Below are positions 2,652-23,501 of a DNA stretch of 23,501 bases, piece by piece (positions within the stretch are counted from its first letter, which is position 1; each line of letters starts with the position of its first letter). This DNA comes from a virus. The notes below the pieces were generated by a model. That model was not told where the DNA came from. It was given only the letters and a program-made list of their open reading frames with translations, and did not search any database. The stretch lies in IMG/VR virus record IMGVR_UViG_3300010153_000121, positions 1 to 23,501 of that record. One strand, given 5' to 3'. Both the position numbers and the translations under genes were made by a program.

Positions 2652-4115
2652 ATGGCATTGACTAACGTACTAAAAACGTACTACAATGATTCGCAGATGA
2701 CTGACACCAATTCGTTGGTCAATGCGTTGATGGAGAAGCCGGAAGAGCTGTCTCCAATTATCACGCACCTCGCAGGGCGTGAAGAAAAGAAATTCCCATT
2801 GTCTTTCATGACAGAGGGAGTAGGTAACACTAAATCTATCGATCGTTTTGAATACGAGTACCGAGTGAAAACTCATGAGGTAAACGTTCGTCCGGTTGTA
2901 GCTGCTTCTGGAACAGGAGCTGGTGGTGCAACTTTTACTATTACTTTCCCAGATCGCTGGTTTGTATTCCCATACACTCTAGTTTCTGAAAATGGGGTAT
3001 TAGCTCGTATTATGGAAGAACCGTCAGCTGTAAGTGGCGGGTATCGCTATACTATGAAGCTTGTATCACCAGATCAAGCCGCTCTTGTAGACACAGATAC
3101 TACTGGAGATCTTGCACCTGGTGCAATGTGGGGTCAGCTATACGCTAACGTAGGAATTGACTTCTCTCGTGGAAACGCTTCTAACTGGAGTGCACCTGGC
3201 TTAGTTCGTTCTAAGATTGGAACTATTCGTAAGTCTTATCAGTTTTCTGGTAATGCAAAAGACTACGTTGCTCAATTTGAACTCCCACTAAAAGAAGGTT
3301 CTACTACTAAACTTTGGATGGACTATGAAGAGTACCGTCATATGTTGAAGTTTAAGGAAGAGTGTGAGATGTACTACTGGTATGGCCAGAAGACTCATGA
3401 CTCTACCGGTCGAACTAATATGGTAGATGAAAATGGACAACCAGTTGTTTCTGGTCCTGGTTTATTCGAGCAGATTATCAATAAAGATTCTTACTCTACA
3501 TTAACTCAAACTAAAATTGAGGATGTGATTGGTGACTTATTCTACGGAATGACTGACGCTACTGATAAACAGGTTACTTTGTATACTGGTATTGGGGGAG
3601 CACGTGAATTTGATAAAGCTATGCGTAACTACTACGCTAGCGGCAATGGTGGGGCTACTAGTGTTACTGCAGGACAGCGTGGCTACTTAACTACTTCAGA
3701 TTCTAAGTTCATTACAGGTAGTGGACGTAGTCTTGGTGTTACTGGTTACTTCAACTCTTATGACCACATTGATGGACATACAGTAAACGTAGTTAAAGTT
3801 CCATTATTTGACCATGGTCCTGTTGCTCAGGCTTCTAGGAAGCACCCAGAGTCGGGTCTTCCATTAGAGTCTTATCGAATGACATTTGTTGACCAGTCTA
3901 CTTATGACGGAGAAAACAATCTCCAAATGATCAATAAGAAAGGTCGTGAAATGTTGCGTTGGGCTGTTGCTGGTTCTGTTGTGCCTAAGGGCTTTACAGG
4001 GTCTGACACTCGCGCTAGTGATATAGACGGTGCTTCCGTACACATGCTAAAGACAGCTGGTATCCTGCTTCGCAGATTTGATACTTCGCTTGATATGACT
4101 TGTACTGCATCGTAA
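2652..4115 (+). CDS. Major capsid protein
   Basis: The 487-residue product is of a size usual for HK97-fold capsid proteins of crAss-like and flavobacterial podoviruses. It lies directly after the scaffold and is followed by a strong hairpin, as expected for the most highly expressed late gene. Visible features include an N-terminal arm (residues 1-60), a charged and aromatic stretch EEYRHMLKFKEECEMYYWYG at about 226-245 that resembles the long spine helix region, and a C-terminal domain that ends in RRFDTSLDMTCTAS. Arginine is coded by CGN in about 21 of 23 cases, unlike the AGA-rich large adhesin gene downstream, which suggests selection for efficient translation. The start context AATCATG recurs at other genes here. 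Family membership is inferred from context and length; a structure search would settle it. Confidence 0.85.
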   Translation: MALTNVLKTYYNDSQMTDTNSLVNALMEKPEELSPIITHLAGREEKKFPLSFMTEGVGNTKSIDRFEYEYRVKTHEVNVRPVVAASGTGAGGATFTITFPDRWFVFPYTLVSENGVLARIMEEPSAVSGGYRYTMKLVSPDQAALVDTDTTGDLAPGAMWGQLYANVGIDFSRGNASNWSAPGLVRSKIGTIRKSYQFSGNAKDYVAQFELPLKEGSTTKLWMDYEEYRHMLKFKEECEMYYWYGQKTHDSTGRTNMVDENGQPVVSGPGLFEQIINKDSYSTLTQTKIEDVIGDLFYGMTDATDKQVTLYTGIGGAREFDKAMRNYYASGNGGATSVTAGQRGYLTTSDSKFITGSGRSLGVTGYFNSYDHIDGHTVNVVKVPLFDHGPVAQASRKHPESGLPLESYRMTFVDQSTYDGENNLQMINKKGREMLRWAVAGSVVPKGFTGSDTRASDIDGASVHMLKTAGILLRRFDTSLDMTCTAS

Positions 4116-7998: not shown

Positions 7999-10900
7999 AT
8001 GGCTGGTAAGTATACAAAGAGTAAGAAAAAAAGTACAAAAACTACTAGTACTACAATAAGTTCTGTATCAGGAGGTACTAAAAGTGTTAGTAGTTCTGGA
8101 AGTGTAGGTAGTGGTGGAGGTCGAACTGATGATCCAAACGCTGGAAGTTCTGGTTCTGCTAATTTAAATTTTAGACCTTCTCGTCATTTTTACGTAGTTC
8201 CTACATCTGCTGACTTTCGATTAGAACATGCTGCTACAACTGTAATAGCTCCATACAAAACATATTTAGGACAATTAGGCCCTTATGTAGGAGCAGGAGG
8301 AAAAGTAAGTGATGATGTTGATAATAAATTTTATGTTGGTGCTCAAGGATTTGCAGAAGTAGTTGGCGTAGTTCCTACTAAACTTACAATAGGTAGAGAA
8401 GAAACTACAGGAGCCAAACTACTACAGGACCACATAGAAGCTATAAAGTATAACTATTTATCAAATGGTCATAAAACAATTTCTATTATTTATCCTAAGT
8501 CATCAAGTAAAGATATTAGAGAACGTATTATACAATTTAATGTTTTATTTAGTGATGGATCTGTTATTACAGTAAAACAACCTGTAGTATCTAACACCTT
8601 AGTAAGCGGAAATGGTATAGTAGCTGAAATAGATACAGGCGGTCTTCACCAAAACCCTGTGTTTAGAAACCTAAGAAATAATGGAGGTATATCTTTTAAA
8701 ATAGGTGCTCCCGCAGGCAGAGGTACTGTGACTTCTTTTATATCTGCAGGAAGTTGGATTAGAGGAAATTTTAAAGGAGGAGATAATTTAACTCCAAAAA
8801 AACATTTATGGTGGAAAGTTACAGGAAGACGTGAAGGAGGTGTTGGAAAAATTGGAGCTGTTTTTCATCAACAAGCTTACGAATCATATGGAACAGCTGG
8901 AGGTAGTAATTCTGTTAACGGGATTACATACGGTCTTGAACCGACTGTTCGTTTTAACTGGAAATCACGATATGGTCTAGCAGATAGAAATTCTTTTGCT
9001 GTTAAAACTGGTGCAGATTCGTTTGAAGGTTCTGCTGCTAATGAATTAGTAGGATCTAGTTTATACCCTAGAGGTTATTCTAAATATACTATAGCTGGAA
9101 ATTTAACAAGTAATAACGCAAGGCTTCCACGATGGCAATCTGTAAATAAACTAGGAGCTATAAATTATGAAGAAAATTCTGACGCCTATTCACAATATCC
9201 TACTAATAGGTTTGGTCCTGTAAATTCTCATTATAATGGAGGAGTTGGACACACAATACAACAAGATGGATTATGTATTTCTTTTAAATTGTTAACTAAT
9301 GAAGCAGATGCATCTAGTTTTCAGCCTCGTAATTTAAATAGAGCCCATGAATCATTAGCTCTTTCATTACGAGGATTTTTAAAAGGGTTAACAGAAAGTG
9401 TTTATATTAGTGATGGAGATGGCGATGGTGGATATGGTGGTGGCGACGGTGGTGGCCACGGTGGTGGTGATGATCACCCTGATGGACCTGATGGAGGTGG
9501 TGGCCATGGTGGTGGAGGTGGAAATGGAGATGATGGAGATAACGGTGGAGGGGGACCTAGTTATCCTGACCATGGAGGTTTTGGTGTAGAAGATGATTTT
9601 GGACTTGGTAAAAGAATATCTGGACTAAATACTGGGTCAGTAGAAATACCTAGTTCTGATCCTTTTAATATAACAGCTAATTATTATAATAATAATTTAT
9701 CAGCTGGTGAGATTTGTATGAAAACTCCTGAAGCAGGAGATACACATATATCTATTGGCCAAGGACCTGCTGATACAATTGCAAATTTAATTACAGGAAA
9801 CAGAAATTTATTTTTTACACCTGTAACCGGAGGTTCAAATCTTAAGCAAAGAGCGGTATTTGCAGCTGCGATGGGAAGATCAGTAGGTGAATATAGCTTA
9901 TCAACTAGCCAATGGTACGCTGATGAAGTTTTTGTAAATGATGAGACCTCAGGAAGTTCTGCTGATACTATAGGAGTTATATTACCATTTATGGGTACTA
10001 ATATTCGTCAAGGTTTTAGAACAGGAGAAAGAGGAGATTTAGCGCCTGATCCACAAAGTCCAAATTACAGGGGAAACGTAGTAATGCAAGCTATACCTTT
10101 TTTTAATTATATAGATTTTCCAGTAATTGAAAATGTTTATGAGCATGTAGATAAAACAGGTAGACAATCAAGGATAAAAGATGAAATTACAGAATTTCCT
10201 GCTGCTCAAGGAGTACCTGATTATGTAAGTAATAGCACTTATACTAAATCTGGAGCTACGTCAGCTACTAGAGCTATAAATAAATTACCTGTTGAGTTAA
10301 ATACATCTATATTTCCTTCCACATTTAATGGATTTAAAGCTCCTGCATATGTAAATGTAGATCCAAATACAACTTATACAATAGATAATAAACATGCTCC
10401 TGGGAATATGTCAAGTGGTAATCTACCTACCATAGGATTTGATAGAGAAACAAGACAACCTTGGGGACGATTAAATATAGACTATGGGAGTAGCCTTTAT
10501 AGTAATTACCTTATAAGTGGATATCTTCAAGATACTTTTGCTTATGCAGCAGGAAAATTGTCTAATTGCATGGTGTTTTATAACACTAGTATTGAATTAA
10601 ACTATGCAGAAAATAGAAGTTTATCTCCTAAATTAAAATTTACGCAAAAACTAGATTTGTCAGTAGAGTCTTTACTGCAAGCTGTGCCGATAAATGGTTT
10701 TATACAAAATGCTTTTGAGCTTCCACAAGACCTTTTTAGCTTACAATTTCAAACAAATTTAAGTAGTGGAGCTACTACAGTAAATTCAGAGCCACAAATT
10801 GACAGTGATTCTAATATATATGATATATATGATTGGAAATACACTCCTGGACGTTTTTTAGCAGATAATGCTTTATTTCCTATAAATACGGATGACATAG

Positions 10901-13900
10901 CTTCAGAAAGTGACATTACCTTTTATCGGAAGCTCGATATATCAGATTATGCGTACTTATTAAATGCTAGTGAATCCACTGCACAAACAACTACTATTAT
11001 ATTAGATGAAGAAGCTCCTGATAATGCAAGACCTTTTGTAGATATAGATGTAGAAGATATTCCTAGTGAAGGTTGGAATAATATTAATTCAAATAATTTG
11101 CAATTTAATGCTGCTAGTCAAATTGTAATATCTAAAACAACACAACCAATAGGTCATATTGGAAATATTTTAACAGGTGCAGATACTCAAAATTTAATAT
11201 GGTCACGAGAATATAATTTTGTTGTTCCTGGATTAACTGATTATGAAGGAGGGTTTGATACTGACGAAGTGCGTGGATGTATGGATGCTGATGCACAAAA
11301 TTTTAATGCAGAAGCTACAATTAGTGATGGTAGTTGTATTTATTGCAAACCTAAAAATAGTGATATTGTAAATCCACATTTATATATTCAAAATGGAATT
11401 AGTGGAGTAATTCCTAACCAAGCTGCGGCAGGCCAGTTTATTTTAGATGCTCCTAAAATGGGCAATGGAAGTTCATATGGTCTAGGAGGATACGTAACTA
11501 ACTCATCTTGGGCTATAGGTAATATTGGAAATGCTGTTAATTATGCAGATCCTACTTTAGGAATAGCAATTAATAATCCAGCAACAGCTGCTCCTTTTAC
11601 ATCTATGCAATTTGAAGCTAATGTAAGTCTTACAGGTATAATAAATGCTGCTCAATCTGCAGGATCTACTGTAAATACAGAAGCATGGGCAGAATATTGG
11701 ATAGAAAATCTTCCTCCTGAATCATTTAGTCTTATTATATACCCAATTGATGCATTTGATGAGGATCATTTTAATTGGGGTACAACAAATACATTAGCAA
11801 CATATACTCAATTACCAATTTTAGAAGGGTACAGTAGTGTAATTACTTTAGAAAATCAAGGAGATTCTCAACAAATTAAATTTGGAACAGATTATCCTGG
11901 TGATATAGGTAATGTTTCTTTAGGGCTTGAGCCAGGGCAACATTATTTAGCAGTACTTCAAATTCAACCAGTTGGATGCAATAGTAATTTTTATCTAGCT
12001 TATAATTTTTGGGTTCTATATTGTGATTGTAATCTTGAAGATGCAAATAATTTTGGAGGAAATAACTGGAATTATCCTTGGAGTAATATAAGCGCATTTC
12101 CAGGAGGATGGGGAGGTACTCATAAATTTTGTTTTGAAAATCCTACTTCAAGTAAAGGATGGCGTAGAACTAAAAAAGGAGCAAATGATGAAGAAGATCC
12201 AGGCTTATGCGAATTACCAGAAGAATATACTGATTGTAGTCAATTTATAGATTGGTGTGTTGTAAGTGATACTTTTGATTGTGAGCTTACGGGAAATGTT
12301 GCGTCGGGTTTCCAAAATATAGGAACTGGTACTTTAAGTATAAATGTATATGGTGTTTACACAGGATCTGAAGCAGAGTATTCAGAATATGCTTTATATG
12401 TAAATGGGCAATTATTTGAATTTAAAATTGAGCTTCTTGATATTAATACAGGTATAATAATAGATACAATTATTGTAGATGATCTTGATGATTATCTAAC
12501 TTTGTCTGGAGGTATCTCTCCGCAAAATATGCAATTTGTACAAGTTCTTTTTGAAGACATCCCAGAAGGAAATTATTACGTACATCTTACTCAATTAGGG
12601 GCATTATTCCCAATGCAAGATCCAGATGGTGCTTTATGCACATATGTACATCCAAGTGCAGGCTCTAATGAAGTAACTATTGGAGGAGATGAACCTTGTG
12701 ATAATGATATTATTTGTGATTGTAATGATCCTGCTGCATATAACTATAATCCTAATGCTACTACTGTTGTTAATGGAGTACCTTTTGATGAGTGTAATGA
12801 TCAATGTTTATATGAAGACTGTAGTGAGATATTCTCTCAAGTACTAATTACAGACGTTATTACAACTAACTCAACTGCAGAATGCGCAGAAATAGAAATA
12901 GATACAGATAGTGATGGTGTAAATGATACTACTAGTTATTATTTAGCAGATACTGCATCTGGAACTGCATCTTTTGGAGTAAGTAATTTTGATGCTAGCC
13001 AAACTGTAGGAAATAACCTTGTAACGAATGGCAATTTTAGCGCAACAAGTACAACAAAAATACTTGATGGAAACTTTCCTTCACCTAACGTAAATTGGAT
13101 ATTACATTCATCCACAATAAACGGAGGAAGCGCGACTATTACGGGTTTAGGTAGTTTAACAAGTACGGGAAACAATTGGAGCGTTTCACAAAATGTCATT
13201 GATATTGGTGTTCGTTCTTACAAAGTAACTTTTACAGCAAAACAATTAACGGGTACAGGTGCTATGTATGGCGGTATAGGTTATAATAATATCTTTAACC
13301 AAGTTGTCACGGGTGAATTTGTTACATATACATTTCATCAACATAATGTTGTCACGGAGGGCAATGGAACTCGCGTAGCATTTGGCGGTGTTTTAGCAAC
13401 TGGAGGAGAAACAGCAAACACGTTTGAAATAAAAGACGTTGTAGTTCAGGAACTCGGCGAAGATTGGACATTTGGAACGGCTTGGAGTATAACTCTGGAC
13501 GATAGTTTAGGGTCTAGAGCTTCAGTAGATTCTACTGAAACTCGTCTTTTAAGTCAGTCTACTATAAATTTAGTAGCTGGAACTTTTTATAAAATTACTT
13601 GTGAAGTAAGTAGTTACGCAGCAGGTGCATTGCAAATTCAATTTGGTGGCCTTCAGGTATTAGGCAGTACAACTAGTGACGGAGTATTTACTGTATTTGG
13701 TACGCCAGATACTAACGGCTTACCTCTTTATTTGTATGGAGTTGCTATAGATGGTGATGTAGATTTTTCAGTAGACAATGTCTCAGTTAAAGAAATTGAA
13801 GTTACAGACTTTAATATTGGTATTGTTTCTCTTTTAAATGGAGATCAAAGTACAGGAACCCAAACATTATTCCAGTATTATAGTAATAACTCTGAAGCAA

Positions 13901-15402
13901 TAATTAGTGCAGCACCAGGTACTGCTAGTATAATAACTCAAAATGGAGTAACTGTAGGTGCATTTTTATCACTAAATCAAACTACAATACCATCTGGAGT
14001 TTTTTCTGCAAATAATTTATATGCAGGAAATTTCTTAGCATTTGCAATACCAGTATCAACAGCTGTTAGTCCTGAAACTAATAACATTGAAACTTGTGAA
14101 AACGAGCTATTAGAGATTTTAGATAATTTTGCTACTTTTCAAATTTTATTAGATACCTCATCAATTCCTGATGGGTCATGTCCGGAAGGATGTAATGAAG
14201 TTACTAATCCAGAAGATTGTGATGATTATGTTGCAGGATGTACAGATGAATCAGCTAGTAATTACAATCCTTTAGCTACATACGATAGTGGAGATTGTGA
14301 GTATGGAGGAGCTGAAGACTGTGTTACTACACCAAGTTTACCAGAATGTGAGGAGTGTGAAGGAACATCAGATGCTCCTGGAGGAGGTTTAAGAATGTGT
14401 GATGAAGTAAATGGTAATGAAGCAGGATGTATGGATCCTTTAGCTTGTAACTATAATGCAAATGCTGTTATAGCAATGCCATTTTTATGTGAGTATTGCT
14501 GTGACGGAGATGATGATTGTGTAGAAACTGGAGAAGATGACGAGTGTCAAGATGAATTAGGAAATATTGATCCTGATTGTGTTACCTCTGAATGCCCAGA
14601 TCCTACTAATCCAAATTGTGGTCAACCTCCAATAAATCCATGTCCTAACCCAGGCGATTGTCCCCCACCCCCAGTTCCAGATTGTATACAATTAGGAACT
14701 TGTGGAGATGATGATGATTCTACAGATGACCCAAATGTTATTATAGACGATGTAAGTGTAGATGTAATATCTTGTGATCCATTATTTAATGGGCTAGAAT
14801 TTAGCCAATGGCAAGAAACTGCTATGACATGCTCTGCTGAAAAAGGCACGCAAATGTTATTTAAACTTCGTTCTGGAGTTAAGCAAAGTAAAACAGATAT
14901 GATTAAATTAGTATTAATTAATTATCTGTTTAATCAAGGATTAGACTTACCTTGCCTATACAGTTGCGATGCAGAAACAAAAACACTTCGTAATCGTAAT
15001 GTTGTTAAAGATTGTTTAAGAAATTGGGCACTAAGTGGTTCACAAAACTGGACTCCAAAAAGTACTTACTTAAAAGGGGAAACAGTTAGAGTACTTAAAA
15101 ATGTAAGAGGTCAAACAAAAGCTTCTTATTATATAGCTAAACAAAATATTCCTGCGCAACAAGTTAGACCTGATACTAAGATTCCTAATAATAGTTTTTG
15201 GGAATTATGCAGAACAAGAAAACCTCAAGAGTCTTCTGTAAAAGGTGCAAATTACTTACAAACTTTATATGAGTTTATGATTAAGCATTGCGAAAATTGT
15301 AGTATAAGACCTAGAGGTACTGAAACTTATCAAGGTAATGATAACGTTAAATCAATTCAATCAGGATTATCAGATGCTGATGACAACGAAATAATATTCT
15401 AA
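7999..15402 (+). CDS. Giant mosaic adhesin / tail-associated protein
   Basis: At 2467 residues this is the largest gene. In order: a low-complexity S/T/K/G-rich N-terminus (1-55); a beta-rich region (about 55-470); a Gly/Asp/His linker (about 471-530); further beta-rich blocks; the first host-type Cys repeat (1093-1113); a second (from about 1575); a TSP3-like loop starting at D1635; two tandem jelly-roll, carbohydrate-binding-like domains (about 1675-1820 and 1820-1933); two more Cys repeats (2080-2100, 2143-2164); a D/C/P-rich stretch; and a C-terminal region with a W..Y..G..V pattern like a CBM5/12 chitin-binding module (about 2351-2404). There is no signal peptide. The protein is most likely a virion-attached receptor-binding or surface-adhesion protein. 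The fibre gene starts after a one-base gap. A tape-measure role is unlikely because long helices are absent. The virion location is inferred from context. Confidence 0.75.
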   Translation: MAGKYTKSKKKSTKTTSTTISSVSGGTKSVSSSGSVGSGGGRTDDPNAGSSGSANLNFRPSRHFYVVPTSADFRLEHAATTVIAPYKTYLGQLGPYVGAGGKVSDDVDNKFYVGAQGFAEVVGVVPTKLTIGREETTGAKLLQDHIEAIKYNYLSNGHKTISIIYPKSSSKDIRERIIQFNVLFSDGSVITVKQPVVSNTLVSGNGIVAEIDTGGLHQNPVFRNLRNNGGISFKIGAPAGRGTVTSFISAGSWIRGNFKGGDNLTPKKHLWWKVTGRREGGVGKIGAVFHQQAYESYGTAGGSNSVNGITYGLEPTVRFNWKSRYGLADRNSFAVKTGADSFEGSAANELVGSSLYPRGYSKYTIAGNLTSNNARLPRWQSVNKLGAINYEENSDAYSQYPTNRFGPVNSHYNGGVGHTIQQDGLCISFKLLTNEADASSFQPRNLNRAHESLALSLRGFLKGLTESVYISDGDGDGGYGGGDGGGHGGGDDHPDGPDGGGGHGGGGGNGDDGDNGGGGPSYPDHGGFGVEDDFGLGKRISGLNTGSVEIPSSDPFNITANYYNNNLSAGEICMKTPEAGDTHISIGQGPADTIANLITGNRNLFFTPVTGGSNLKQRAVFAAAMGRSVGEYSLSTSQWYADEVFVNDETSGSSADTIGVILPFMGTNIRQGFRTGERGDLAPDPQSPNYRGNVVMQAIPFFNYIDFPVIENVYEHVDKTGRQSRIKDEITEFPAAQGVPDYVSNSTYTKSGATSATRAINKLPVELNTSIFPSTFNGFKAPAYVNVDPNTTYTIDNKHAPGNMSSGNLPTIGFDRETRQPWGRLNIDYGSSLYSNYLISGYLQDTFAYAAGKLSNCMVFYNTSIELNYAENRSLSPKLKFTQKLDLSVESLLQAVPINGFIQNAFELPQDLFSLQFQTNLSSGATTVNSEPQIDSDSNIYDIYDWKYTPGRFLADNALFPINTDDIASESDITFYRKLDISDYAYLLNASESTAQTTTIILDEEAPDNARPFVDIDVEDIPSEGWNNINSNNLQFNAASQIVISKTTQPIGHIGNILTGADTQNLIWSREYNFVVPGLTDYEGGFDTDEVRGCMDADAQNFNAEATISDGSCIYCKPKNSDIVNPHLYIQNGISGVIPNQAAAGQFILDAPKMGNGSSYGLGGYVTNSSWAIGNIGNAVNYADPTLGIAINNPATAAPFTSMQFEANVSLTGIINAAQSAGSTVNTEAWAEYWIENLPPESFSLIIYPIDAFDEDHFNWGTTNTLATYTQLPILEGYSSVITLENQGDSQQIKFGTDYPGDIGNVSLGLEPGQHYLAVLQIQPVGCNSNFYLAYNFWVLYCDCNLEDANNFGGNNWNYPWSNISAFPGGWGGTHKFCFENPTSSKGWRRTKKGANDEEDPGLCELPEEYTDCSQFIDWCVVSDTFDCELTGNVASGFQNIGTGTLSINVYGVYTGSEAEYSEYALYVNGQLFEFKIELLDINTGIIIDTIIVDDLDDYLTLSGGISPQNMQFVQVLFEDIPEGNYYVHLTQLGALFPMQDPDGALCTYVHPSAGSNEVTIGGDEPCDNDIICDCNDPAAYNYNPNATTVVNGVPFDECNDQCLYEDCSEIFSQVLITDVITTNSTAECAEIEIDTDSDGVNDTTSYYLADTASGTASFGVSNFDASQTVGNNLVTNGNFSATSTTKILDGNFPSPNVNWILHSSTINGGSATITGLGSLTSTGNNWSVSQNVIDIGVRSYKVTFTAKQLTGTGAMYGGIGYNNIFNQVVTGEFVTYTFHQHNVVTEGNGTRVAFGGVLATGGETANTFEIKDVVVQELGEDWTFGTAWSITLDDSLGSRASVDSTETRLLSQSTINLVAGTFYKITCEVSSYAAGALQIQFGGLQVLGSTTSDGVFTVFGTPDTNGLPLYLYGVAIDGDVDFSVDNVSVKEIEVTDFNIGIVSLLNGDQSTGTQTLFQYYSNNSEAIISAAPGTASIITQNGVTVGAFLSLNQTTIPSGVFSANNLYAGNFLAFAIPVSTAVSPETNNIETCENELLEILDNFATFQILLDTSSIPDGSCPEGCNEVTNPEDCDDYVAGCTDESASNYNPLATYDSGDCEYGGAEDCVTTPSLPECEECEGTSDAPGGGLRMCDEVNGNEAGCMDPLACNYNANAVIAMPFLCEYCCDGDDDCVETGEDDECQDELGNIDPDCVTSECPDPTNPNCGQPPINPCPNPGDCPPPPVPDCIQLGTCGDDDDSTDDPNVIIDDVSVDVISCDPLFNGLEFSQWQETAMTCSAEKGTQMLFKLRSGVKQSKTDMIKLVLINYLFNQGLDLPCLYSCDAETKTLRNRNVVKDCLRNWALSGSQNWTPKSTYLKGETVRVLKNVRGQTKASYYIAKQNIPAQQVRPDTKIPNNSFWELCRTRKPQESSVKGANYLQTLYEFMIKHCENCSIRPRGTETYQGNDNVKSIQSGLSDADDNEIIF
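9411..9590 (+). repeat. Gly/Asp/His low-complexity linker in the adhesin
   Basis: The DNA here is built from near-repeats of GGTGGTGG, GATGGAG and GGCCA/CGGTGG. It encodes about 60 residues that are mostly G and D with H and P (adhesin residues 471-530). It separates the N-terminal region from the rest of the protein and probably acts as a flexible, possibly metal-binding, hinge. Both strands are open here for about 180 bases as a side effect of the repeat. Confidence 0.85.
11275..11337 (+). repeat. Cys-bounded host-type repeat 1 in adhesin
   Basis: Residues 1093-1113 follow the pattern G-C-[MT]-D-x2-A-x-N-[FY]-N-x2-A-T-x2-D-G-S-C and are followed by I-Y-C. The repeat is of the kind seen in tandem in large secreted proteins of marine Flavobacteriia. 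Its fold and ligand are not known to me; a disulfide between the bounding cysteines is likely. Confidence 0.85.
12721..12807 (+). repeat. Cys-bounded host-type repeat 2 in adhesin (degenerate, longer)
   Basis: The repeat starts at residue 1575 as C-N-D-P-A-A-Y-N-Y-N-P-N-A-T. It then has a longer stretch than the other copies before its closing cysteines, near residues 1599 and 1603. The core NYNPNAT is intact. The leading glycine is replaced by aspartate and cysteine. Confidence 0.75.
13021..13467 (+). other. Codon-atypical carbohydrate-binding-like domain in adhesin
   Basis: Adhesin residues about 1675-1823 form a jelly-roll-like domain: a NGNF start, strands SYKVTFTAKQL and VTYTFHQHNV, and an end of the EIKDVVVQEL type followed by GEDWTFGTAWS, the usual junction to a next such domain in phage adhesins. 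Codon use changes here. The segment has eight ACG (counting one just past its end) and five GGC codons plus GCG, CGC and GTC, which are rare in the flanking adhesin sequence, where ACT/ACA, GGA/GGT and AGA dominate. This suggests a recently acquired domain. Confidence 0.6.
13456..13797 (+). other. Second carbohydrate-binding-like domain in adhesin
   Basis: Residues about 1820-1933 run from EDWTFGTAWSI to FSVDNVSVKEI. The GTAWS start, the YKITCEVSSY strand and the DNVSVKE ending match jelly-roll (CBM4/CenC-type) modules common in marine phage tail proteins. Codon use is like the rest of the adhesin, unlike the domain just before it. Confidence 0.6.
14236..14298 (+). repeat. Cys-bounded host-type repeat 3 in adhesin
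   Basis: Residues 2080-2100 begin GCTDESASNYNPLAT and end in a closing cysteine after Y-D-S-G-D. It closely matches the first repeat of the secreted protein near the window end (GCTSESASNYNPWAT), which suggests a common source. Confidence 0.9.
14425..14490 (+). repeat. Cys-bounded host-type repeat 4 in adhesin
   Basis: Residues 2143-2164 begin GCMDPLACNYNANA and close with C, followed by E-Y-C-C. There is an extra cysteine within the core (A-C-N-Y-N), as in some flavobacterial copies. Confidence 0.85.
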
Positions 15403-15403
15403 A

Positions 15404-16951
15404 ATGGCACGACAAATTGTAGAACTAAATTTAAAATCTAAAAGTGATTCTATCTCTGATGAAAGAATTCCTTTACAGAATAAAAAAACTAATCAAACTA
15501 GTGCTTATAAACTAGAAGATTTATTTCCTATACTTCAAGATGGAAGTACTACATCTGGTAGTAAAAGTTTAGGTAGCGCTTTAGGTGTATCTACTCTTAC
15601 TCCTTTATTTGTAGGAGGAGGGTTTGGTAATACTATAACAGGTAATGAAAAGAATACACTTATCTTTAAAGGTATTAGATCTAATGACACTGTTATTGAA
15701 ATTAAAAATGAAACCTTAAGCTCAGATCTTACTAAAACTAATTTAGTTATTGATTTTAATCAATCTCTTTTAGATCTTAGTGCTTGTAGTAATAGTTCAT
15801 CTGGATTTTTAAGCACTGTAAATCTAACTTCTAATGTAGGATCTACTATTCTTCCTGTAGCTAATGGAGGTACTGGTGTTGCAGCACTTGCTGATAAAGC
15901 TGTTCTAATTACACAAGATAGTGGAACAGATACAGTTGCAGCAGCAGCAATGTCAACAAATGGACAAATCCTTATTGGGGGCTCATCTGGTCCTGCAGTA
16001 GCAACTATTACAGCAGGTACTAATATGACTGTTACTAATGCAGATGGAGCAATTACACTTGCTTCTTCTATTGGTACTATTTCTGCTGACTTAGATATGC
16101 AGAACTATGATATTGACTTAGGGACTGGATGGTTAAGTGGAGATGGTACACATGAAGGAGTTAATATTGATTCTTCAGGTAAAGTCTTTATTGGGAGTGC
16201 AACCCCTACAGGTTACTTTACATCTGATTTAAATGTTAATTCTAGTATATCTTTGGGAGCTACTAATGGTAGCACAGCTCAAAGCATAACACTTAAACCT
16301 TGTACTTCAGGGTCATCCCCAACATTTACTATTTCTGGCTCTGCTGCTAGTGGTACAGGTAATGCAGGAGGCGCTGTTGTAGTCAATGCAGGTGCTGGTG
16401 ATACTAATGGTAATGGTGGTAATTTAGAAGTTAGAGCCGGTCTTAAAGCAGGTTCTGGTACAGACGGATCAGTTCTTATTAGGACAGGATCATCAGGTAC
16501 AATTACTACAGCTGTTACTGTAGACAATTCACAGAACGCAACTTTTGCTGCGGGTATTATACAAAGAGGTGATGCAGGTATTGTATTGCATCAAAATACC
16601 CCAGCTACCACAGATGATGGTACTGCAGTAGTATCTGCAGCCAATGTATTAACTGGCATTGTAACATGCACCCCAACAGCTGATAGAAGTAAAGCTACAG
16701 ATACTGCAGCTAACTACATTAGCACTCTTGGGCTAGCAGCAGATGACGATGCTTTTGACTTTAGCGTCATAAACTTAGCAACAGATGGTACATCCTTTGT
16801 AACCATAACTGCAGGTACAGGCGTAACACTTGTAGGTGCTGCAATCATATCTGCACAGGATGCTGCAGAAGATGCATTTACTTCAGGTGTAGGAAGATTT
16901 AGAATTAGAAGGACAGGTTCTGCCGCTGTAAGTGTGTATAGAATAGCCTAA
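15404..16951 (+). CDS. Phage fibre protein (tail or head fibre)
   Basis: The 515-residue product is Ser/Thr/Gly/Ala-rich and beta-structured. It contains the fibre motif LPVANGGTGV near residues 148-157, which is common in repeat-built phage fibres. An N-terminal segment (ARQIVELNLKSKSDSISDERIPLQNK, residues 2-27, then LEDLFPIL) may attach to the virion. A Gly/Ala/Asn-rich stretch around residues 305-350 (NAGGAVVVNAGAGDTNGNGG) resembles a triple-stranded shaft. The C-terminal part (about 430-515) forms a strand-rich tip that ends GRFRIRRTGSAAVSVYRIA. Such proteins are usually trimeric. The gene starts one base after the adhesin stop, so the two are probably co-translated. Head-fibre and tail-fibre roles cannot be separated from sequence alone. 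Confidence 0.75.
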   Translation: MARQIVELNLKSKSDSISDERIPLQNKKTNQTSAYKLEDLFPILQDGSTTSGSKSLGSALGVSTLTPLFVGGGFGNTITGNEKNTLIFKGIRSNDTVIEIKNETLSSDLTKTNLVIDFNQSLLDLSACSNSSSGFLSTVNLTSNVGSTILPVANGGTGVAALADKAVLITQDSGTDTVAAAAMSTNGQILIGGSSGPAVATITAGTNMTVTNADGAITLASSIGTISADLDMQNYDIDLGTGWLSGDGTHEGVNIDSSGKVFIGSATPTGYFTSDLNVNSSISLGATNGSTAQSITLKPCTSGSSPTFTISGSAASGTGNAGGAVVVNAGAGDTNGNGGNLEVRAGLKAGSGTDGSVLIRTGSSGTITTAVTVDNSQNATFAAGIIQRGDAGIVLHQNTPATTDDGTAVVSAANVLTGIVTCTPTADRSKATDTAANYISTLGLAADDDAFDFSVINLATDGTSFVTITAGTGVTLVGAAIISAQDAAEDAFTSGVGRFRIRRTGSAAVSVYRIA

Positions 16952-17812: not shown

Positions 17813-18250
17813 ATGAGCAAGAAAAAAATAAAAGATACTAAGCTAGGCGCTTGGTTATCAGAAAAAGCCCCAAATATATTGGGTGTAGTAGGAGATCTTC
17901 TTCCTGATTCTGGTGGACTAGGTGTAGTTAAAAACCTAATTAGTAAAGATGATAGCATTGACCCTGCAGAGGCTCAAGCTAAAATAGATGCTGAAATACG
18001 ATTTCAAGAGAACGTAACAGAGCGATGGAAAGCTGATATGGGTAGCGATGTAAAACTTGCTAAACTTATACGTCCTGTTACTCTTATATGCCTTATGGGA
18101 ATGTTTGTGATAACTATGTTTATAGATAGCATGGATAATGTAGCATTTAATGTAAAGGATTCTTATGTATCCTTATTAGAGCTACTTATGCTTACAGCAT
18201 TTGGTGCATACTTTGCTGGGCGTACTATAGAAAAGAAAGCTAAAAAATAA
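17813..18250 (+). CDS. Holin
   Basis: The 145-residue protein has a soluble N-terminal half with an amphipathic helical stretch (LGVVGDLLPDSGGLGVVKNLI, split by a glycine-rich turn) and two membrane segments, at about residues 88-105 and 118-137. The strong pattern is NVTERWKADMGSD before KLIRPVTL, followed by NVKDSYVSLLELLMLTAFGAYFAGR and a lysine-rich tail (EKKAKK). This matches the GTA-type/3TM holin family (Pfam GTA_holin_3TM, from memory) widespread in marine phages. Holins permeabilise the inner membrane at the end of infection. No endolysin is adjacent, so the muralytic enzyme must lie outside the window. Confidence 0.8.
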   Translation: MSKKKIKDTKLGAWLSEKAPNILGVVGDLLPDSGGLGVVKNLISKDDSIDPAEAQAKIDAEIRFQENVTERWKADMGSDVKLAKLIRPVTLICLMGMFVITMFIDSMDNVAFNVKDSYVSLLELLMLTAFGAYFAGRTIEKKAKK

Positions 18251-22092: not shown

Positions 22093-22365
22093 ATGGCAAC
22101 AGCAGCGTGGACAAGAAAAGCAGGAAAGAGTAAATCTGGAGGATTAAATCGTAAGGGTATTGCTTCTTATCGTAAAGCAAACCCAGGAAGTAAATTGTCT
22201 ATGGCAGTTACTGAAAAAAATCCTAAAGGTAAGAAAAAATCTAGACGCAAATCTTTTTGCTCACGTATGTGTGGTATGAAAAAAAGACTTACAGGAGCTA
22301 AGAAAAAAAGAGATCCTAATTCAAGAATTAATAAAGCACTTAGAAAATGGAGATGCAGATGTTAA
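22093..22365 (+). CDS. Basic DUF6321-like protein of marine phages
   Basis: The 90-residue protein is very basic. It begins WTRKAGKSKSGGLNRKG, has a middle 'ASYRK..PGS', then RRKSFCSRMCGMKKR, and ends RINKALRKWRCRC. The pattern 'W-T-[RK]-x-x-G-K-x-x-x-G-G-L-N', then 'RRKSFC.RM.GM' and a final 'AL.KW.C' is one I recognise as the small uncharacterised family DUF6321, found in many marine phages. Its four cysteines (C56, C60, C88, C90) and high arginine/lysine content suggest nucleic acid binding or metal binding. Function is unknown; packaged-DNA or host-takeover roles are speculative. Confidence 0.8.
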   Translation: MATAAWTRKAGKSKSGGLNRKGIASYRKANPGSKLSMAVTEKNPKGKKKSRRKSFCSRMCGMKKRLTGAKKKRDPNSRINKALRKWRCRC

Positions 22366-23501
22366 TAAAACAATTAATTACAATATTATTAGTAACTTTA
22401 TCTAGCTTAGTTTTTGCTCAGCCTGATAATGCTAGTTGGCTAAACGTAACGGTACAAACAGATCAGTACGGTGCGGAAACATCTTGGGAAATATTGATGG
22501 GAGGTGAGGTTGTTGCAATAAGCCCTCTATACCAAAACAGTACGCTAAGCAATGTAACGATACCTTTGCCTGCAGGAGATGACTATGAGTTTATTATTTA
22601 TGATTCTTTTGGGGATGGTATATGTTGTGACTTTGGTGCAGGTTGGTATAGTCTTACTAATACATGTGGTTTAGAGATATTTAATTATGAGTTTAATAGT
22701 GCATCAGATACTACAGGCTTTAACTTGTTTCCATGTCTACCTGTTTTATTTGGATGTACAAGCGAATCTGCTAGCAACTATAACCCATGGGCAACAGTAG
22801 ATGACGGCAACTGTAATGTAAGTGAATGTCCTGAGGGAGAAACCTTAGTAACTATGGAGCTTACGCTAGACAACTGGCCTAATGAAACTGGATTTACTCT
22901 TGTAAATTTAGCTGTAGGTGAGTTTTATGAACAGGTGTTTCCTGGTGAGTTTGACTTCGGGGATCAGCTTGCTACATACACATATGACTTTTGTGTGTCC
23001 TTAGGGTTTGAGCTCGTACTTGTAGATACATTTGGAGATGGATTAAATGGTATAGCTAGTGGAGGAGAAGCTAATGGTGCTGTAGTTATTACATCATGCC
23101 AAGACAGCATATTATGGGAGCTAGAAGATGTAGCATTTGCAGAATTTGAAGGAGGAACAATGTACTCTGGAGCTGTGTTTACAGAACCTTGCCCGCCTGT
23201 ACCACCTATATATGGGTGTATGGATGATGATTACGTAGACTATAATCCTCTAGCTACAACCCAAGACACTTGTGAAGTATTACACACATGGGGATGTATG
23301 AACTCAGAAGCTTTTAACTATGATAATACAGCTACTATATCAGATTTTAATAGTCCTTGTCCTATAACTATTACGTTAGAAGATGATGCTGGTGATGGAT
23401 GGGGTATGTCAGGTATTGGTCTAATACAAGAAGATCAGCAATGGTTATTTACTATGGGACCTGGACAGTTTCAAGAGTCGTGGGAAATTACACTTGACTC
23501 A
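22359..23501 (+). CDS. Secreted Flavobacteriia-type protein with signal peptide (3' end outside window)
   Basis: The frame is open from the ATG at 22359 (alternative ATG at 22353) to the window end, at least 381 residues. MLIKQLITILLVTLSSLVFA-Q is a classic Sec signal peptide with cleavage after FA. Residues about 25-125 resemble a domain of secreted marine Flavobacteriia proteins: SWLNVTVQTDQYGAETSWEI, then IIYDSFGDGICCDFGAGWYS. Three Cys-bounded repeats follow, at 22752-22814, 23214-23273 and 23292-23360, separated by further 'DTFGDGLNG' and 'DDAGDGWGM' strands. The start overlaps the preceding basic gene by seven bases, so it belongs to the phage operon. A type IX sorting domain could lie beyond the window. 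It may coat the infected cell or be a virion-linked surface factor; role unknown. Confidence 0.85.
   Translation, partial: MLIKQLITILLVTLSSLVFAQPDNASWLNVTVQTDQYGAETSWEILMGGEVVAISPLYQNSTLSNVTIPLPAGDDYEFIIYDSFGDGICCDFGAGWYSLTNTCGLEIFNYEFNSASDTTGFNLFPCLPVLFGCTSESASNYNPWATVDDGNCNVSECPEGETLVTMELTLDNWPNETGFTLVNLAVGEFYEQVFPGEFDFGDQLATYTYDFCVSLGFELVLVDTFGDGLNGIASGGEANGAVVITSCQDSILWELEDVAFAEFEGGTMYSGAVFTEPCPPVPPIYGCMDDDYVDYNPLATTQDTCEVLHTWGCMNSEAFNYDNTATISDFNSPCPITITLEDDAGDGWGMSGIGLIQEDQQWLFTMGPGQFQESWEITLDS
22752..22814 (+). repeat. Cys-bounded host-type repeat a in secreted protein
   Basis: Residues 132-152 begin GCTSESASNYNPWAT and close with C after V-D-D-G-N. They match adhesin repeat 3 (14236-14298) almost position for position. 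Confidence 0.9.
23214..23273 (+). repeat. Cys-bounded host-type repeat b in secreted protein
   Basis: The copy begins at residue 286 as GCMDDDYVDYNPLAT and closes with C after T-Q-D-T. It keeps the core DYNPLAT but the N of NYN is replaced by D. Confidence 0.85.
23292..23360 (+). repeat. Cys-bounded host-type repeat c in secreted protein
   Basis: The copy begins GCMNSEAFNYDNTAT and closes with C after I-S-D-F-N-S-P. It lies 18 bases after repeat b, so the two are close to tandem, as in flavobacterial cell-surface proteins. Confidence 0.85.

Follow-up and report, generated by a model that had tools for sequence, protein, structure and literature searches.

A predicted T9SS-exported surface protein in a crAss-like phage contig belongs to a conserved four-gene envelope cassette

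We analyzed a viral stretch of 23,501 bases (IMG/VR virus record IMGVR_UViG_3300010153_000121; here called the window), a crAss-like phage contig whose last open reading frame (ORF), gene A, encodes the N-terminal ~385 amino acids (aa) of a predicted Sec-exported surface protein. A preliminary description of the window viewed this gene singly; it belongs to a conserved set of four envelope genes (A-B-C-D, here called the cassette), which is found in three phage types, with enrichment close to holin and amidase genes.

Gene A and its protein family

Gene A (22347 to 23501, plus strand, as are all window features below) starts at ATG 22347 or ATG 22359 and continues past the contig end. Its overlap with the upstream DUF6321 gene is 19 bases from the first start and exactly 7 from the second, the figure given in the preliminary description. 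The predicted signal peptide (22359 to 22418), MLIKQLITILLVTLSSLVFA with cleavage before Q, resembles a standard signal peptide (KD19 2.05) and appears as a helix (residues 2-19) in an ortholog model; a signal-like hydrophobic core is retained in 92 of 97 orthologs despite diverging letters, which bears out the clear signal peptide reported before. The other described features were also located: a DSFGDGICC motif (22602 to 22628) in the first beta-sandwich domain, with FGDG and the following Cys nearly invariant in the family, and three Cys-bounded repeats built as GC...NYN/YNP..A...C units. These are GCTSESASNYNPWATVDDGNC (22752 to 22814; Cys columns conserved), GCMDDDYVDYNPLATTQDTC (23214 to 23273; nearly invariant in the family), and GCMNSEAFNYDNTATISDFNSPC (23292 to 23360; conserved). 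For the window fragment, there was no match among Pfam, NCBIfam, and PHROG models or among GenBank phages. The C terminus and the next genes lie beyond the window, and a search by exact DNA patterns yielded no contig that extends it.

A scan of IMG/VR yielded 80 loci, and the orthologs in about 70 phage contigs, at 58-71% identity to the window protein, rule out a chance ORF. Host origin or a prophage edge was also rejected, in agreement with the earlier view that the gene belongs to a phage operon and not to flanking host DNA: relatives carry it well inside phage contigs of 40-155 kb, and the 398 sampled Flavobacteriales genomes contain B just twice, in each case on a phage-like contig with phage-type genes. 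Complete orthologs of the close family are mostly ~690-790 aa long, divergent members reaching 1259 aa; one member split in two frames (L059) was excluded. Podovirus contigs L031, L033-L036, and L039 carry two consecutive A genes, a full one and a shorter one (411-521 aa).

The orthologs have varied but signal-like N termini and end in a type A sorting domain of the type IX secretion system (T9SS), e.g., VYPNPVTDVLNI...GFYQVAIRYNERTTIKKIIKL. Both TIGR04183 and PF18962 scored above their cut-offs in 6 of 9 sampled members, and TIGR04183 matched at E 0.01 in 55 of the 60 proteins of a family alignment that includes the window row, which ends before the C terminus. In the most divergent members (L071-L080 type), the tail is shortened, and the two that were sampled gave no sorting-domain match. 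The preliminary description had proposed a search for such a domain and a structure prediction; the latter (AlphaFold2, crAss-like ortholog L051; mean pLDDT 79, pTM 0.40) comprises a signal helix, three beta-sandwich regions, the repeats, a Cys-rich helical module, and a terminal beta domain. This terminal domain resembles the NucA signal in a T9SS complex (8glk_D; TMt 0.77, root mean square deviation 1.9, 74 columns) and also matches the C-terminal domain of RgpB. Foldseek returned no convincing structural relative for the body of the protein, taken with the sorting domain excluded. The family thus carries both marks of T9SS type A cargo, a sorting domain and a predicted N-terminal Sec signal. 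Judging from these sequence features, and with the C terminus of the window copy taken from its relatives, gene A very probably encodes a protein exported to the host surface via the T9SS.

The Cys-bounded repeats occur more widely. GenBank matches to one long A protein were confined to the NYN-C repeat region and came from cyanophage S-CAM3 and one marine virus, so the repeat alone is no marker of flavobacterial proteins. In S-CAM3 (KU686198, ~36581-36985), the protein with the repeat is annotated as hypothetical or virion structural. Within the window, several GC..NYN..C repeats are found in a 2467-aa giant protein (7999 to 15402), probably a virion component, for which no match was found among Pfam and NCBIfam models; its homologs in other crAss-like contigs also bear these repeats and gave matches to the A profile. 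The shared repeats are what would favor reading A as an ordinary virion (tail or fiber) protein with a falsely called signal peptide. A signal peptide and a sorting domain are both missing from the giant protein, whereas both recur throughout the A family, and A is constantly linked to genes for a barrel and a signal-bearing thioredoxin-fold protein; we consider a virion role very improbable.

A four-gene cassette in three phage types

The cassette was recognized by whole-contig comparison of the crAss-like and podovirus types, in which the same three genes come after A, with little else in common. When 73 B loci were taken with 3.5 kb on both sides, A was present in all 73, D in 72, C in 69, and all four genes in 69; the missing C and D may partly reflect ORF calling, and some loci have an opposite-strand ORF in place of C. 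The main orders are A-B-C-D, at 72 loci, and B-C-D-A, at 17, and the A and B frames overlap by 4 nucleotides (nt) in 50 of 95 cases. B relatives are encoded in at least 583 viral stretches; at the sensitivity used, no relatives of B or C were detected in cultured or GenBank phages. No description of the cassette was found in the literature (open-licence papers).

B (~348 aa) has a signal peptide and was modelled as a barrel of ~12 strands (pLDDT 70, pTM 0.62), its best PDB matches being outer-membrane barrels. In C (94 aa), a single hydrophobic segment is accompanied by a heptad-patterned tail. D (~110-120 aa) combines a signal peptide with a thioredoxin fold; the L249 member scored 24.7 bits against PF00085 (cut-off 23.5), the other D members fell under the cut-off, and CxxC was absent from all 119 D proteins. 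A search of the cassette revealed no lipoprotein: most B proteins are without a lipobox, and the signal peptides of A and D are not of lipoprotein type. The N termini of some divergent B proteins contain Cys. In Flavobacterium gliding, operons of the SprB-SprF type place the gene for a T9SS-secreted adhesin beside one for an outer-membrane barrel. The cassette likewise has a T9SS surface protein gene beside a barrel gene; it differs in that A bears a type A signal and B matches neither PorP_SprF nor any other Pfam family.

The three phage types are crAss-like, podovirus, and T4-like; typing covers part of the contigs, and the crAss labels of L013 and L021 are based only on neighbor genes. The major capsid protein of the window (2652 to 4115; phrog_11589) matches crAss002 and other crAss phages at 28-29% over 99%, and TerL of a sister contig (G053) is ~42% identical to crAss terminases, so that homologs of both proteins by which Crassvirales are recognized were found, TerL being taken from the sister contig. 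Many of the other contigs are podoviral: their terminases share 42-48% identity with those of an uncultured podovirus and of Flavobacterium phage elemo, and Cellulophaga phages gave matches as well. The helicase of the T4-like type is 54% identical to that of Flavobacterium phage immuto. The notion that all contigs with the surface protein are crAss-like proved wrong, the window-type capsid protein being present on 2 of 40 long ones.

In a tree of 63 B proteins, the T4-like phages form one clade, and accounting for the crAss-like and podovirus labels takes 4-5 changes, of which strongly supported branches force at least 3. The cassette has thus passed between phage lineages. Two long contigs with a window-type crAss-like capsid protein (G011 and G021, loci L109 and L137) gave no A match. 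The cassette is thus not universal in the crAss-like lineage, as judged from contigs that are themselves fragments.

Lysis genes and candidate roles at the envelope

Genes near the cassette include holin (phrog_3427), M15 endolysin (phrog_894), Amidase_2 endolysin, and DUF5675, the last with no curated lysis function. The window has a holin gene at 17813 to 18250 (phrog_3427, E 5e-23); a protein 88% identical to its product is encoded upstream of A in G031, and a holin homolog abuts gene A in other phages. Enrichment was measured on 49 long contigs, within 6 kb of B. Holin genes were found there in 19 of 38 long contigs (7.6 expected) and amidase genes in 4 of 7 (1.2 expected), and a local shuffle gave 16.9 ± 3.1 against 26 of 56 observed to be adjacent. 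These statistics ignore the relatedness of contigs, and more weight was therefore given to recurrence in different contexts: the holin and A frames overlap in 13 of 23 cases, the order A-B-C-D-amidase occurs both in T4-like phages and in crAss-like G014, and a phage contig of G452 (contig 16; L278, 7677-10001) carries M15 endolysin, B, C, and D in overlapping frames. A was not found in the 19 kb examined around the latter genes. G452 is a Flavobacteriales metagenome-assembled genome with a related phage, and many of its own proteins, on other contigs, match the A profile in the sorting domain only.

From the computed features (signal-like N termini, a T9SS signal, a barrel fold, four-gene linkage, exchange between phage types, and enrichment near lysis genes), we tentatively favor, as the leading interpretation, a late envelope-opening module that replaces spanins and has a T9SS surface component. 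A would leave the inner membrane by Sec and cross the outer membrane by the host T9SS via its C-terminal type A signal, and B would insert as an outer-membrane beta-barrel. C may be anchored in the inner membrane by one helix, with its coiled coil presumably pointing into the periplasm, where D, whose thioredoxin fold lacks the redox CxxC, may serve as a chaperone or adaptor. Jointly, and putatively in contact with one another, A-D would span the envelope of Bacteroidota hosts. B-C-D would replace spanins, opening the outer membrane after holin and endolysin have acted; A would act from outside on the surface layer or prime the envelope. Positioned among late genes, the cassette is probably expressed late.

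Several observations weigh against this interpretation, besides the disregard of relatedness in the statistics. C matches no spanin family, and its charge pattern leaves its orientation unsettled. M15 genes alone were not significantly enriched near B (7 of 23, 4.9 expected). Lysis genes were detected on 45 long contigs, but 15 of these had none within 6 kb of B, and there the cassette lies among head genes. Finally, membrane fusion has no obvious need for a surface protein secreted prior to lysis.

As a possible means by which Bacteroidota phages breach the outer membrane, the cassette is a candidate that occurs widely and whose parts are defined. A survey of spanins counts Bacteroides and Croceibacter phages among those lacking them, asks about another route, and suggests an outer-membrane protein as a possible o-spanin (PMC6139136). 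Like two-component spanins (lambda Rz/Rz1), the cassette would combine an inner-membrane coiled-coil protein with an outer-membrane partner near holin and endolysin genes (PMC6139136); it differs in that the outer-membrane partner would be a beta-barrel and not a lipoprotein, in its extra thioredoxin-fold and T9SS parts, and in the absence of any sequence match. More tentatively still, the cassette could represent a new class of Gram-negative phage lysis system for Bacteroidota, in which a barrel, a coiled-coil protein, and a CxxC-less thioredoxin fold stand in for spanins, with a T9SS-displayed helper, and which is traded among crAss-like, podoviral, and T4-like phages.

The main rival, which we regard as possible and somewhat doubtful, is superinfection exclusion or debris shielding: T9SS-displayed A, held by barrel B, would cover or jam the phage receptor on infected cells and lysis fragments, with C and D helping assembly. 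It fits that A, the surface part, is more variable than B and C (mean pairwise identity of 52% versus 66% and 74%, the N-terminal part of A varying most) and that several contigs carry a second A. Such a role has been suggested for phage T9SS cargo (PMC7468147), and Llp of phage T5, which blocks a receptor at the outer membrane as A would here, is a precedent; Llp differs in being a small periplasmic lipoprotein, encoded by a single gene and expressed early (PMC9586334). Exclusion proteins are described as early-expressed (PMC9586334), whereas A-D lie among structural and lysis genes, and the G452 phage, with B-C-D overlapping the endolysin gene and no A nearby, is a poor fit. If exclusion were the true role, the cassette would be an exchangeable superinfection-exclusion system of marine phages.

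Phage T9SS cargo as such has been reported earlier. Cryophage (Bellas et al. 2020) is a Bacteroidetes phage encoding proteins with T9SS type A sorting domains, for which superinfection exclusion or competition was suggested (PMC7468147). Its cargo consists of single variable genes (endoglucanase, GH39, PA14), whereas here one conserved family occurs with constant B-C-D in three phage types; the cassette thus extends phage use of the T9SS beyond single variable cargo genes. A gut phage cluster with BACON repeats (de Jonge et al. 2019) also has T9SS sorting domains, upstream of the head section; the passages on this cluster concern a BACON context in the gut and describe no B-C-D cassette or link to lysis (PMC6949934).

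A phage-made adhesin or surface coat that alters the attachment, particle association, or nutrient access of infected cells is unlikely. The Cys-rich repeats and T9SS signal of A do resemble host surface proteins, and lectin- and cohesin-type proteins are encoded in an analogous island of the cultured Flavobacterium phage immuto (NC_055915, L275), but no carbohydrate-binding or adhesin family matched A, and an adhesin would leave the constant barrel, coiled-coil, and thioredoxin partners and the lysis-gene enrichment unexplained. The proposal of the preliminary description accordingly stands in part: a Sec-exported, flavobacterial-type T9SS protein encoded in a phage operon is upheld, while for the adhesin, shield, or superinfection roles it suggested, the context points at least equally to lysis.

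The immuto island (10527-15868) is unannotated and lies between NrdA and QueC, the place of the cassette in L191, with lectin and cohesin domains instead of the A-D families, to which tblastn found no match. Its lectin- and cohesin-type proteins have signal peptides, and one, encoded at 12691-13422, carries a T9SS type A domain (TIGR04183, 44.8 bits); the island also encodes a protein with one transmembrane segment and a barrel-like protein of 474 aa (barrel judged by eye). T9SS cargo, a small membrane-anchored protein, and a barrel may thus have come together on more than one occasion. A search of phi14:2, elemo, and MW202828 revealed no T9SS domain. The role of the cassette becomes testable, among other ways through this analogous island of a cultured phage.

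Neighboring genes in the window

The DUF6321 gene that overlaps gene A (22093 to 22365; PF19846, E 3e-17) encodes a small basic protein. In relatives, members of this family often follow D or precede A and frequently overlap or abut the cassette, and of 20 cases in which DUF6321 follows D, 16 have the two genes within 20 nt of each other. A LamG/concanavalin-type domain protein (PF13385, 21145-21879) is also encoded in the window, in the interval that separates gene A from the structural genes, and similar proteins (cluster c21) are found near A in other contigs.
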